In this document: positions 37,741 through 63,479 of the stretch, piece after piece
Position numbering within the stretch: the first letter of the stretch is position 1
Layout: each line of letters starts with the position of its first letter
Notes under the pieces: model-generated
The model's input: only the letters and a program-made list of their open reading frames with translations
Databases searched by the model: none
Told to the model about the DNA's origin: nothing
Translations under genes and position numbers: made by a program
Source of the DNA: Microcoleus sp. FACHB-831
Lineage (GTDB): Bacteria; Cyanobacteriota; Cyanobacteriia; Cyanobacteriales; FACHB-T130
Assembly: GCF_014695585.1 (NCBI RefSeq)
Contig: NZ_JACJON010000040.1
Span: 62,001-126,000 of the forward strand
Length of the DNA: 64,000 bases
Direction: 5' to 3'

Positions 37741-37824
37741 ATTGGAGATTTTAGATTTTAAATTTAGTCAAAATCTAAAATCCTCGGAGGCGGAGAATCC
37801 CGACCTCCGCAAAATCCACAATTG
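37741..37824. repeat. Heptamer repeats around a GGCGGAG hairpin (rpsM-rpsK spacer)
   Basis: GATTTTAGATTTTA units on one side and AAAATCTAAAATCC on the other, enclosing GGAGGCGGAG...CCTCCGC, then AAAATCC again. It closely resembles the element at 21531-21599. Confidence 0.75.
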
Positions 37825-43346: not shown

Positions 43347-43397
43347 ATTTTGGATTTTGGATTTTGGATTTAATCTAAAATCCAAAATCTAAAATCG
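43347..43397. repeat. GATTTTG array facing CAAAATC array (rpsH-rplF spacer)
   Basis: TTTTGGATTTTGGATTTTGG, then TTTAATC, then TAAAATCCAAAATCTAAAAT: heptamers in both senses, a potential stem of about 20 bp. Confidence 0.82.
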
Positions 43398-45226: not shown

Positions 45227-45293
45227 AAGATTTTGGATTTTGGATTAGTGATAATGGACTTTATTTGTAAATCCAAAATCTAAAATGCAAAAT
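45227..45293. repeat. GATTTTG array facing CAAAATC array (rpsQ-rplN spacer)
   Basis: GATTTTGGATTTTGGATTAG on one side and AAATCCAAAATCTAAAATGC on the other, with about 25 unique bases between. Confidence 0.78.
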
Positions 45294-53020: not shown

Positions 53021-53402
53021 AAAAATATTTATAAAGTTGCACGTATTTCTATTAATTTTTTGGTTAAATTTATCTTCAGGATAAATTTAACCAAAAGCTT
53101 GTGGTGGCAAATTTATAATTATTCTAAATTTAGTAATTGCCATACACTCAAATATAACTATGGGGAAAATTTGCCTCGCGTGGGTGAATAAAGCTAATTT
53201 GTCTTGATTTGAGATAGCTTTCCCTGAAGAGCCGTGCGATCGCCAGCATATACGCCGCTTCACCACGAACATACTAAATAGTATTAACTAGCGTAATTGA
53301 GATTTTTGTATATAAATCGCAGGATTATCAGCGATTTGGCATAGGCTAGAGAAAGAAGTAGCGATACTCACAGGAGGTTATCTCTTGGTAGAAGGAGGAT
53401 CT
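53021..53402. other. 382-base AT-rich gap with a long hairpin
   Basis: No gene seen. TTTTGGTTAAATTTATC and its exact complement (53058-53096, 17-bp stem, loop TTCAG) lie just after the Slr1339-type gene, probably a terminator though without a T run. The later part must carry the promoter for VWA copy 2. Confidence 0.6.
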
Positions 53403-54008
53403 TTGGCAGAAAACCGTGATTACACCTTAATCATCGACAAAAGCGGCAGTATGTCAACCCCAGATCAACCGGGTGGCAGAAGTCGCTGGGAAGCCGCGCA
53501 GGAGTCTACAATGGCTCTGGCGAGGAAATGCGAACAATTTGACCCGGATGGGATTACGCTTTATCTGTTTTCAGGACGGTTTAAGCGGTTTGACAACGTG
53601 ACCTCTAACAAGGTGTCGCAAATATTTCAAGAAAATGACCCCTCTGGGACCACTGACTTAGCCAGCGTACTCAAGGATGCCACTGACCGCTACTTTGAAA
53701 ATAAAGCAGCTGGCCAGACTAAGCCGAATGGAGAAACAATCCTGGTAGTCACAGATGGCGAACCCGACGACCGGAAAGCAGTGATGCGAGTGATTATCGA
53801 GGCGTCCAGACGCATGGAGGCAGATGAAGAACTGGCAATTTCCTTCATTCAAGTTGGCACAGATCAAATGGCAACCAGGTTTCTCAAAGTCTTGGATGAT
53901 GAACTCCAAGGTGCTGGAGCCAAGTTTGATATCTGTGACACCATAACGCTTGACGATATGGAGGGTCTGACTTTGAAGGAAGTGTTGCTTAACGCAATCA
54001 GCGATTAA
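53403..54008 (+). CDS. Von Willebrand A domain protein, copy 2
   Basis: 201 residues if started at the TTG at 53403, which gives (L)AENRDYTLIIDKSGSMS aligned with copy 1; another TTG at 53385 adds six residues. Both have a good ribosome binding site (GGAGG at 53394 and CAGGAGG at 53371). The adhesion site is complete (DKSGS, TTDLASVL, VVTDGEPDD), and the C-terminus is DDMEGLTLKEVLLNAISD. Closely related to copies 1 and 3. A heptamer-built terminator follows at 54016. Confidence 0.84.
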   Translation: MAENRDYTLIIDKSGSMSTPDQPGGRSRWEAAQESTMALARKCEQFDPDGITLYLFSGRFKRFDNVTSNKVSQIFQENDPSGTTDLASVLKDATDRYFENKAAGQTKPNGETILVVTDGEPDDRKAVMRVIIEASRRMEADEELAISFIQVGTDQMATRFLKVLDDELQGAGAKFDICDTITLDDMEGLTLKEVLLNAISD

Positions 54009-54095: not shown

Positions 54096-54698
54096 GTGGA
54101 AGATCGCGATTACACGTTAATTATCGACAAAAGTGGCAGTATGTCTACTCCCGACCAAGCAGGTGGTAGAAATCGCTGGGATACTGCTCAGGAGTCTACC
54201 TTGGCATTGGCGAGAAAATGCGAACAGTTTGACCCAGATGGTATTACTGTTTACGTGTTCTCCAGCCGATTTAAAAAGTACGAGAATGTTACCTCTAGCA
54301 AGGTTGCACAAATATTCCAAGAAAACGATCCTGCTGGCACGACGGATCTAGCTAGCGTGCTGAAGGCTGCTACTGACGGCTATTTCCAGCGCAAAGCAGC
54401 AGGTCAAGCCAAAGCGGGTGGAGAAACCATTTTGGTTATAACCGACGGGGAGCCAGATGACCGCAAAGCCGTAATGCGGAACATTATTGAAGCATCTCGC
54501 CAGATGGAACGGGATGAAGAACTGGCAATTTCCATAGTTCAAGTCGGATCGGATGCAACAGCCAGTAGGTTTCTTAAGGCGTTGGATGACGATTTGCAAG
54601 GTGCTGGAGCCAAGTTTGATATCTGCGACACCATTACTCTGGATGATATGGCAGATATGACGCTGGCTGAAGTGCTACTCAATGCCATAAGCGACTAA
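54096..54698 (+). CDS. Von Willebrand A domain protein, copy 3
   Basis: 200 residues from a GTG start preceded by AAGGAGGG at 54080: (V)EDRDYTLIIDKSGSMS. The adhesion site is complete (DKSGS, GTTDLASVL, VITDGEPDD); the C-terminus is DDMADMTLAEVLLNAISD. It is closest to copy 2 by shared stretches such as GAGAKFDICDTITLDDM. Terminator-like hairpin at 54720-54744. Tandem duplication is the likely origin. Confidence 0.85.
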   Translation: MEDRDYTLIIDKSGSMSTPDQAGGRNRWDTAQESTLALARKCEQFDPDGITVYVFSSRFKKYENVTSSKVAQIFQENDPAGTTDLASVLKAATDGYFQRKAAGQAKAGGETILVITDGEPDDRKAVMRNIIEASRQMERDEELAISIVQVGSDATASRFLKALDDDLQGAGAKFDICDTITLDDMADMTLAEVLLNAISD

Positions 54699-54801: not shown

Positions 54802-55980
54802 GTGACAGAAATCTACTACCCCTTGAAATCGTTAAGGGAGGGTCACTGGTTTAAGCTAATTTGTGGAGCCAGTTTCCAACACCTCCCTGCTGTTCGGAAT
54901 CTAACTTTGGCTTATACTCTGGCTGGAGCGGACTGTATTGATGTGGCAGCCGATCCAGCTGTAATTGCAGCAGCTAAAGAAGCTATAGAAACTGCCGCGC
55001 ACCTTCGTGGTGATGCTCAGCGACGAGGCTACGGGGTAAGTGGTTCGCCTCTGCTGATGGTGAGCTTGAATGATGGAGAAGACCCGCATTTTCGGAAAGC
55101 AGAATTTAACTCAACCGAGTGCCCGAGCGAATGCCCGCGTCCGTGCGAAACAATTTGCCCAGCGGGAGCGATCGCTTTTTCAGGATTAAGTGAGGGTTTT
55201 TCTGGGGTAATTGACGCCCTGTGCTATGGCTGCGGGAGGTGCGTGCCAGTATGTCCAAGCCAACTAATTTATACTCGTTCCTACGTGTCAGTCAGGGAAG
55301 CGATCGCGCCGTTGATATTACAAAGCGGCATTGATGCCCTAGAAATACACACACAAGTAGGGCGATTAGAAGATTTTAAGCGACTGTGGCAAGCGATCGC
55401 GCCTTGGAGCGATCGCCTCAAGCTCTTAGCAATCAGCTGTCCCGATGGTGAGGGCATGATTGATTACTTATGGGCACTATACGACCTGATAAAGCCACTT
55501 TCGTACCCCCTAGTTTGGCAGACCGATGGCCGTCCCATGAGTGGAGATATTGGCGCAGGAACCACAAGAGCCGCAGTGAAGCTAGGACAGAAAGTTCTCG
55601 CCGCTCGATTACCCGGATATGTACAGCTTGCAGGTGGCACAAACAATAGCACAGTAGAGAAGCTAAGAGCAGTCGGGCTACTCAACAATTTTGGATTGGA
55701 AAATACTTGTGACGAGCCACTTTATAAATCGCCAATCCAAAATCCCAAATCCAAAATTGCAGGTGTTGCTTACGGTAGTTATGCCCGCGTGCTGATGTCA
55801 CAAGTCCTAGAAGAGTTAGAAAAGATAAATAGAGACATATTTTCTCTAGGTGTTGATGTTCAACAACAATCATCAACAGGACGTTTAGAAGATACACCCC
55901 TTTTGCTCTGGCAAGCAGTCGAGCTAGCCAGCTCCCTTGTTTCACAACTCAAATCATCCGTCAATCATTGCAGCAATTAA
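54802..55980 (+). CDS. ldpA: Light-dependent period protein LdpA (Fe-S, clock input)
   Basis: 392 residues from a GTG start. LdpA modulates the circadian period in response to redox state. Two ferredoxin-type 4Fe-4S motifs are present: Cys107, 111, 115, 119 ([19 protein letters not shown]) and Cys141, 144, 147, 151 ([14 protein letters not shown]). The C-terminal part includes [18 protein letters not shown] and [20 protein letters not shown]. Residues about 295-320 ([20 protein letters not shown]) are encoded by a heptamer repeat element, then [13 protein letters not shown] resumes the conserved part. It overlaps the next gene by 13 bases. Confidence 0.9.
55686..55759. repeat. Head-to-head heptamer element inside ldpA
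   Basis: CAATTTTGGATTGG (55686-55699) faces CCAATCCAAAATCC (55732-55745) and ATCCAAAATTG (55749-55759), the same architecture as the intergenic elements, but in frame within ldpA. Confidence 0.8.
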
Positions 55981-57923
55981 TACCCCTAGTGATGAATTCA
56001 AACGGTATAAATCCCTCTAACGAACCGCTTATTTCAGATAGTGAATCGCCGATTGTACAAGAAAACATCACTTTAGGAAGGATGCAGATTACAGACGACC
56101 TTAATAAACTATTAGCGATTTTGCCCGATGAAATTCGACAGCCTTTGGAAAAGCATGAAGCGCGAGATCGTTTAATTGAAGTAGTTTTAGATCTAGGTCG
56201 CCTTCCTGAAGCGAGATTTCCCGAAAAGGCAGAATACCTCTCGCAAACGCCAGTTACACGCGAAAACTTAAATTATTGCGTCCAGCGAGTCGGACACTTT
56301 AGCGGTGATAACCGGGCAGGCATCGAGCAAACTTTACACCGCATCAGCGCTATCCGCAACCGTCAAGGCGAAATTATTGGCCTTACATTGCGGGTTGGTA
56401 GAGCCATTTTCGGAACTATTGGTATGATTCGCGACTTGGTACAAAGCGGCCAGTCGATTCTCATGCTGGGGCGTCCGGGTGTTGGCAAAACTACAGTATT
56501 GCGAGAAATTGCCAGAGTGTTGGCGGATGAATTACAAAAAAGAGTTGTAATTATCGATACCTCTAACGAAATTGCAGGTGATGGAGATATCCCTCATTCA
56601 GCGATTGGTCGTGCAAGAAGAATGCAAGTCGCCAGACCGGAACTTCAGCATCAAGTGATGATTGAGGCAGTGGAAAACCATATGCCAGAAGTCATTGTTA
56701 TTGATGAAATTGGTACCGAGTTAGAAGCTCAAGCGGCTCGTACTATTGCAGAACGTGGCGTGCAACTCGTGGGAACCGCACACGGCAACAGGATCGACAA
56801 CCTAATTAAAAACCCAACCCTCTCCGATCTAGTAGGCGGCATTCAGGCTGTGACGCTGGGAGATGAGGAAGCCAGACGGCGGGGTTCTCAGAAAACAGTG
56901 TTAGAGCGTAAGGCTCCGCCAACGTTTGAGATTGCAGTCGAAATGCTCGAAAGACACCGTTGGGTGGTGCATGAGAGCGTTTCTGACACGGTTGATACCC
57001 TCCTGCGAGGACGCCTTCCCAATCCGGAAGTTAGAACCGTTAGCGAAGCAGGAGAGATACAAATTAGCCGAGAAGTACCCAATGCACCGATAGCACCCCG
57101 GAGTAGAGACGGCGATTCGCTAAGTTCAAGGACGACCTATGGAGGACGTTCCAGCTACGAAACTCCGGCGCGACCCACTGGCTGGCGAGCAAGCGGACAG
57201 ATGATGCCGTTGGCAGGAAAGAGATCAACAGATCAAGGGAGACTAGGAGTAGCAGAGAGTAGAAGCAGAGGAGACTTTTCAAGGAGTGACGAGCGACGCC
57301 CGACAACCGATCAGTCGTCTATTACATCGCCTTCTTTTGACCAACTGCTAGATGAATCTTGGCATCAGCAAGATGGGTTTGGTAATGAGGTAAGGTCGGC
57401 AGGGCCTAATGGTGAGGATCTACCGTTACAGGTTTATCCTTATGGTGTAAGTCGTCAGCAGTTGGATCAAGTGATTGGCGTTCTAAACTTGCCTGTCGAG
57501 GTGACAAAGGATATGGATAGTGCGGATGCGGTTTTGGCGCTGCGAGCGCACGTCAAAACTCACTCCAAATTACGGCACGTTGCTAAATCCCGTCACGTTC
57601 CTATCCATACTATTAAGGCCAGCACGATTCCTCAGATCACTCGCGCTCTCAAGCGTCTGCTGAACATGGATGACCCCAGCCTGCCAGAAGAAGCAGAACT
57701 CACTTTATTTACCCGCAATGGTGATGAAGATGAGATTGAGGCTCTAGAAGAAGCCAGACTAGCGGTAGAACAAATTGTAATTCCCAAGGGACAGCCTGTA
57801 GAGTTGCTACCGCGTTCTGCCCAAGTACGGAAGATGCAACACGAGTTAGTTGAACACTATCGCCTCAAGTCGTCTAGTTTTGGCGACGAACCCAACCGAC
57901 GGCTGCGGATTTACCCAGCGTGA
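55968..57923 (+). CDS. AAA ATPase with R3H domain (SpoIIIAA-like)
   Basis: 651 residues. The ATPase part (about 100-330) has [20 protein letters not shown] (Walker A, 168-175), [15 protein letters not shown] (Walker B) and [13 protein letters not shown] Ser/Arg-rich linker follows, then a C-terminal nucleic-acid-binding R3H domain ([19 protein letters not shown]). The protein is widespread in cyanobacteria beside ldpA; role unknown, probably single-stranded RNA or DNA binding. Start could also be the ATG at 55992, which would remove the overlap with ldpA. Confidence 0.87.
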
Positions 57924-63410: not shown

Positions 63411-63479
63411 GGGATTTTGGATTCAGATTTAGATGAACGATCCAAAATCCTAAATCTAAAATCTAAAATCTAAAATCCT
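63411..63479. repeat. GATTTTG units facing CAAAATC/TAAAATC array
   Basis: GGGATTTTGGATTCAGATTT, a short centre, then TCCAAAATCC and three CTAAAAT units ending at the start codon of the NurA gene. Confidence 0.8.

Follow-up and report, generated by a model that had tools for sequence, protein, structure and literature searches.

Location and structure of the repeat cassette

The window (the whole 64,000-nucleotide stretch of Microcoleus sp. FACHB-831 that was analysed) contains the ldpA reading frame (Table 1), the identity of which is given by matches to NF045992 (NCBIfam, E-value 7.9e-179) and to PF12617 (LdpA_C, Pfam); the minus-strand frame overlapping it encodes only 87 aa. Positions 55686-55759 (74 bases) read CAATTTTGGATTGG, then 32 unique bases, then CCAATCCAAAATCCCAAATCCAAAATTG, and the last 12 bases of the right arm are perfectly complementary to the first 12 bases of the left arm. 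With dinucleotide shuffles as chance controls, the inverted-repeat score of the cassette was 12 (shuffle mean 5.9, none of 60 shuffles as high) and its RNA fold was -16.9 kcal/mol (z = -2.96, 2 of 200 shuffles as low). The absolute fold energy was discarded as a rank within ldpA, being uninformative for this cassette (65% of the same-length stretches elsewhere in the gene fold as low). The heptamer hairpin with head-to-head arms that the original prediction had placed in frame inside ldpA is real and beyond chance, and the further proposal that the element is tolerated in protein is supported.

Two tandem, very similar ORFs, which we take to be von Willebrand A-like, lie just upstream of ldpA, both with DYTLIIDKSGSMSTPDQ. 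The last 13 bases of ldpA also belong to the frame listed for the following gene (by eye ATPase-like), whose true start may be later than listed.

Table 1. Features of the ldpA region and further heptamer pairs (positions in the window)
Feature	Position	Strand	Remarks
Tandem ORF, first	53385-54008		207 aa
Tandem ORF, second	54096-54698		200 aa
ldpA ORF	54802-55980	+	392 aa, GTG start as listed
Repeat cassette, variable loop	55684-55758	+	encodes residues 295-319, flanked by the conserved blocks GLL and AGVAYGS
Left arm	55686-55699	-	heptamer unit on the minus strand (CCAATCCAAAATTG)
Unique centre	55700-55731	.	32 bases
Right arm	55732-55759	+	CCAATCCAAAATCCCAAATCCAAAATTG
Next gene, listed frame	55968-57923		651 aa
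Head-to-head pair of the ldpA heptamer unit	37748-37782	.	touched by open frames of 272 and 108 codons
Head-to-head pair of the ldpA heptamer unit	43347-43396	.	no open frame of 100 codons over the pair
Head-to-head pair of the ldpA heptamer unit	45230-45287	.	no open frame of 100 codons over the pair
Head-to-head pair of the ldpA heptamer unit	63414-63477	.	no open frame of 100 codons over the pair

Dispersal of the heptamer unit

With at most one mismatch, CCAATCCAAAATC occurs five times in the window (shuffle mean 0.19; none of 100 shuffles reached five). The 6.42-Mb genome has 34 exact copies (reversed control 0) and 155 with at most one mismatch (control 11), and the class A 18-mer (see below for the classes) has 84 exact matches there, with none for the reversed controls. 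Besides the pair in ldpA, four other head-to-head pairs of the unit lie in the window (Table 1); all five opposed pairs share a single orientation (5 to 0), and among the 18 arrays in the window 6 are unpaired. Genome-wide, opposed pairs are again of one orientation, 11 to 0 (29 loci, which include ldpA and one other window site), and 24 of 53 arrays are unpaired. As predicted, the element is a member of a dispersed heptamer family that is often arranged head-to-head. It shares with the STRR (short tandemly repeated repetitive) type of cyanobacterial repeats many dispersed copies in the same genome and tandem units of about seven bases (lag-7 self-match 0.51 in the 26 class A cassettes versus 0.31 in the 84 unclassed linkers). 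The statement that the arrangement in ldpA is the same as in spacers stands for the unit and the arrangement but not for the exact arms, because the strict pattern (both exact arms with a centre of 10-40 bases) has a single occurrence in the genome, at ldpA.

The ldpA segment in relatives

We examined 194 ldpA loci (the family and order of the window, plus 80 named ones). The two anchors, GGTN plus 11 residues and AGVAYGS, could be located together in 189 genes (in none from L156, L191, L206, L212 and L225), of which 177 were left after duplicate removal; L015-L019, pieces of genes otherwise in the set, were left out. The anchor-to-anchor segment is present in all 177 distinct genes, with 16-87 residues (median 41; 38 in the window). 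The gap that had been expected in related LdpA proteins at residues of about 295-320 is absent, because every relative holds such a segment, and a single insertion with a gap in relatives was rejected, the segments of the relatives being of similar length.

The original prediction had added that a similar-length segment with unrelated DNA in most LdpA proteins would make the match one of chance. Such a segment is largely what was found, but chance does not follow, because in 93 of the 177 genes the other DNA is itself a tandem repeat, with units of 7-9 bases that fill the segment and belong to 11 labelled families, mostly head-to-head hairpins. These are class A (unit ATTTTGG/CCAAAAT, 26 genes), class B (units GGGAGCA and CTGCCCC, 25 genes), class C (unit GTGCTGAG, 12 genes), and classes G (7), E (6), F (6), D (4), M (3), J (2), H (1) and I (1). 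Regular expressions labelled 80 genes, and by hand 15 labels were added and 2 taken away; classes H and I have one gene each, and M, the least clear family, consists of three Moorena-like sequences. No recognised class was found in the other 84 genes. Self-match, measured for classes A-G, peaks at lag 7 (A, C and G), lag 8 (B, D and F) or lag 9 (E). The consensus sequences of equal-length cassettes agree in register at 52% (B-D) and 44% (A-C), part of which reflects shared border codons, versus about 25% for rotations. From these sequences, some classes may have drifted from one another, and the families are perhaps not all independent.

By eye, a further in-frame insert lies within an arm in several cassettes (L072 and L111; L132, L145 and L148; L123; L183; L195; L118). 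The 22-base core of the insert shared by L132, L145 and L148 has 15, 11 and 7 exact copies in the respective genomes, and is present in 8 of the 10 genomes searched. In the loops of L174 and L176 the left and right arms are, by eye, of different unit families (GATGGGGA with ACTCAAC; GGAGGCA with CTCAGCACCCAG), and look as if one arm alone was replaced.

It is very improbable that the cassette of the window goes back to one mobile heptamer element inserted once into the ldpA of its lineage. The genome of the window is the only one of six in its family with class A, the heptamer unit is abundant in it, and its cassette is without the GATTGCC unit that each of the 12 class A cassettes with 41 residues contains (Nostocales); linkers of 16 residues occur in L014 of the same family and in L187 and L204, and are too diverged to define an empty site. 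However, the family members L010-L013 have longer, not shorter, linkers (54-69 residues, unclassed), and short class A versions exist elsewhere (L079, L084, L131). Wide dispersal of a class A element carrying the GATTGCC unit was also rejected, since among seven genomes searched its exact pattern is nearly confined to ldpA: by coordinates it lies only there in G153, G243 and G250, and in the genome of the window it lies in one NRPS-like frame; copies with one mismatch number four in the search as a whole. Because of this confinement in G153, G243 and G250, many class A cases would be inherited or exchanged alleles and not new insertions, and class A at the ldpA of Nostocales is, by its sequence, probably old. 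The proposed movement of the element as an intact unit is therefore no more than a possibility. For the cassette of the window a separate acquisition is possible, because it is without GATTGCC and is the sole class A case among the six family genomes.

Turnover of repeat classes

On a protein tree built without the segment, the 93 classed genes take 39 class changes, where 10 would suffice. A DNA tree, also without the segment, takes 30 changes for 68 genes, where 6 would suffice (69 genes were chosen by flank identity, mostly Nostocales where named, and L118 was left out of the tree); its starred branches alone require 17 or more changes of B and 13 or more of A. Class B is scattered on this tree as at random: its 20 changes compare with a mean of 19.4 for shuffled labels, and 361 of 500 shuffles gave as few. 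Class A is clustered, with 13 changes against a shuffled mean of 17.4 and as few in 2 of 500 shuffles. Not every change on the tree marks a new insertion, because recombination within ldpA can also uncouple the flank tree from the cassette.

Turnover is also seen between sister genes. The flanks of L085 (class A) and L141 (class E) are 98.2% identical over 390 bases and enclose different cassettes, as do those of L124/L176, L083/L135 and L097/L209 at about 95-97% identity. The cassette borders are at the same codons in the 12 flank-similar, cassette-different pairs compared. Among classed pairs with at least 88% flank identity (which are not independent), 229 differ in class and 139 agree.

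Hairpin potential across classes

A hairpin or inverted-repeat signal was detected in 70 of the 93 classed cassettes, i.e., one orthologous place in ldpA holds different repeat classes with paired arms. Of the 86 cassettes in classes A-G, 52 had a fold z-score of -3 or lower, against 3 of the 79 linkers without a class and 3 of the 344 control windows; a z-score of -2 or lower was obtained for 65, 9 and 22 of the same sets; the comparison between labelled sets is not fully independent, because the labels drew on both arms (irrespective of labels, 75 of 172 reach -2). One identical stem register for all classes was sought and not found.

That a variable linker resembles the heptamer by chance is hardly credible: the linker is variable among relatives, as such a resemblance would have it, but the shuffle controls and the hairpin signal across classed relatives speak against it. 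The main rival to the reading that we prefer (see below) is that the hairpin itself is selected in the mRNA or DNA of ldpA, e.g., for translation pausing before the last strand of the fold or for transcript stability, with the sequence free as long as the two arms pair, as in the P6b stem of trnL. Pairing often outlasts a change of class, length is often kept, and the best pairing sums at length 41 are close for B, C and D (94, 90 and, from one gene, 92), with those of A (best 112, then 105, 98 and 91 nearly as good) including one close to them; moreover, pairing appears to be no rule for coding arrays, since the arrays in an oxidoreductase loop (see below) are by eye mostly single-armed. On the other hand, 23 of the 93 classed cassettes are without a signal (e.g., L176, with its arms of different classes by eye), the linker has 25 residues or fewer in 21 of the 177 genes and no class in 84, and the single orientation of opposed pairs throughout the genome of the window suggests that the arrangement comes with the element. 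On balance we regard a selected hairpin as unlikely.

The protein loop

A first structure model from 9 sequences was poor (pLDDT 44) and was replaced by an AlphaFold2 model from 70 sequences (pLDDT 85.5 overall, pTM 0.87). In the latter, pLDDT is 80 for residues 291-300, 56 for 301-310 and 71 for 311-320; a helix (284-290) precedes the loop, residues 291-318 are coil except for a bridge residue (294) and a short helix turn (315-317), and the last strand (319-324) follows. Foldseek matched barrel enzymes at TM-scores to the query of 0.27-0.42 among the 50 matches listed. These models indicate a barrel-like fold for LdpA, without a closer structural relative among those matches, and the cassette is predicted to form a low-confidence loop before the last strand.

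Between classes, the peptides of the segment are identical at 17% of positions, versus 81% in the flank (27 genes of length 41). The proposal that the insert gives a changed clock-input protein finds no support in such a predicted loop with strongly divergent peptides, and a changed clock input via the cassette is speculation. Selection could also act on the loop at the protein level, as a flexible spacer of about 25-30 residues for which repeats are a cheap source. The commonest length in three classes is 41 residues, which is shared by 27 cassettes of four classes (12 A, 11 B, 3 C and 1 D), and the segment has the position of a loop in the predicted structure; but its length spans 16 to 87 residues, many genomes of the same order have short linkers, and the composition differs strongly between classes, which makes a protein spacer quite improbable.

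Repeats in other proteins and possible sources

Exact sites of the unit in the genome of the window lie within frames of at least 150 codons in 16 of 30 sampled cases, ldpA included (the sample consists of those of the 34 exact sites that came with a locus; it contains ldpA and two sites separated by 25 bases). From the 16 proteins, ten other than LdpA were run against Pfam, and all ten match families. The array is inside or between Pfam domains in eight unrelated hosts (NRPS-like, apolipoprotein N-acyltransferase, FAD-binding, GH116, MHYT-PAS, molybdopterin oxidoreductase, CHAT/STAND and PPDK_N); in L006 and L056 it precedes the first Pfam domain, and may be upstream of the true start. The molybdopterin oxidoreductase (L062 / L231, C67 in the genome of the window), presumably nitrate-reductase-like, has a class A array between two molybdopterin domains. 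By eye, repeat arrays occur in or near this loop in 7 of 30 homologues, its own included, with class A in L231 and L236, class B in L241, class D in L237 and other units in L233, L245 and L246. Repeats in permissive loops are not special to ldpA, because other host proteins and the oxidoreductase loop carry them as well; what stands out at ldpA is the frequent pairing of the arms.

As for possible sources, 12 genomes were scanned for exact matches to patterns of 17-18 bases that represent A, B and C. Nine of these genomes have an ldpA of one of the three classes, and in seven of the nine the ldpA class is also the commonest of the three patterns (the exceptions are G061 and G243, and G167 is narrow, with 27 B to 24 A); in the genome of the window, the 84 matches of A stand beside none of B or C. 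This agreement is a lead, because overlapping matches entered the counts and the three patterns differ in stringency.

The sequence comparisons make it probable that dispersed heptamer repeats of the STRR type are tolerated in a permissive loop of LdpA and are replaced by recombination with other arrays or alleles. Filamentous cyanobacteria carry many dispersed tandem arrays of 7-9-base units, part of them head-to-head and capable of forming hairpins; the loop before the last barrel strand would accept such arrays, and one that is in frame and free of stops could serve as a flexible linker. Class changes would then arise when the cassette recombines with other copies or is repaired from them, the donors of new classes presumably being arrays of the same genome and those of recurrences being ldpA alleles of other strains, and the hairpin perhaps helps the exchange. 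The cassette might be near neutral for LdpA, with selection mainly removing stops, frame shifts and misfolding. The segment in the window is most likely a local allele of such a fast-turnover repeat cassette. The exchange is read from a comparison of largely draft genomes, with no event observed directly.

Against this explanation stand the frequent length of 41 across classes, which plain insertion does not predict, the two of nine genomes in which the ldpA class is not the commonest, and the 84 unclassed genes of 177, which include L010-L013 of the window's own family. A more far-reaching idea, which we hold to be doubtful, is a dedicated in-place process that swaps whole hairpins at fixed borders and keeps the frame, the orientation and often the exact length (41 residues between the anchors), so that at ldpA the hairpin shape, and not the sequence, would be inherited.

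The heptamer hairpins of cyanobacteria are an old puzzle, and most work on them has concerned intergenic copies and a single intron. A coding site with different hairpins on near-identical sister flanks makes the exchange mechanism and any function of the hairpin testable, because ldpA provides fixed borders, a readable frame and many natural replicates. With exchange of dispersed repeats as the preferred explanation, ldpA would illustrate a route by which repeats rewrite the loops of conserved proteins, and it carries a warning that such loops may record the history of repeats rather than adaptation.

Comparison with known repeat systems

The SDRs (small dispersed repeats) of Nostoc punctiforme are very short repeats said to sit inside heptamer arrays. 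By analogy, they would correspond to the nested inserts (those of L132, L145 and L148 with the dispersed 22-base core), not to the heptamer arms. REPINs are paired inverted short repeats. The ldpA units, unlike those of REPINs (PMC3116915), are tandem heptamers.

The STRR heptamer hairpins of cyanobacteria are similar to the ldpA cassette in their units of about seven bases, their hairpin potential, their dispersal and their occurrence in filamentous cyanobacteria, but in the portion of the report available to us they are described between genes, whereas the cassette occupies, in frame, a single orthologous position within a conserved protein (PMC2670836). The G-rich heptamers of Nostoc PCC 7120 (GGGGA[T/C]T) are likewise dispersed, with few paired repeats; intragenic copies of heptamers are already known, because 68% of these are reported as intergenic, but their unit is another one, and orthologous class exchange was not seen in what was described of them (PMC4692102).

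Rickettsia palindromic elements, as far as their description extends here, are palindromic dispersed repeats of about 150 bp with a conserved peptide, which are found in frame in unrelated proteins (PMC10969869), as the heptamer arrays are in eight of the ten Pfam-tested hosts. The ldpA cassette differs in its 74 bases, its low peptide identity between classes and its arms, which are short arrays, and in that different unit families share one place instead of one family with a conserved peptide. In a limited literature set (titles and abstract openings), no literature on repeat classes in ldpA or other cyanobacterial coding loops was found.

The closest comparison is with the trnL intron. The trnL start searched for, which we take to be the tRNA start, was present in 6 of 11 loci, and in the six introns read the P6b stem is Class I-like in one and Class II-like in five. 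No link between the trnL class and the ldpA class is visible in these six genomes: the Class I-like genome has ldpA class B, and the five Class II-like genomes have C, D, B, E and A. A group I intron also lies in a tRNA gene of the window's genome (L269, 1450-1840; not trnL by eye), with the heptamer-like AAATTTTGGAT directly behind the tRNA. The ldpA cassette is no such intron, as it is part of a protein-coding frame and is flanked on either side by conserved coding sequence. In the Nostoc trnL intron the P6b stem consists, in the part of the account at hand, of repeats of the type TDNGATT (Class I) or NNTGAGT (Class II), and the authors infer that one class has replaced the other repeatedly and independently (PMC4476775). 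It resembles the ldpA cassette in its head-to-head heptamer stem, in the replacement of classes in situ and in side insertions into the stem; it differs in being the RNA stem of a self-splicing intron with, as described there, two classes, whereas ldpA has 11 labelled families in a protein frame (PMC4476775). Classes A and C of ldpA agree with the P6b classes in the kind of unit and in its orientation, and therefore the ldpA site can be regarded as a coding counterpart of the trnL P6b stem, with more classes.
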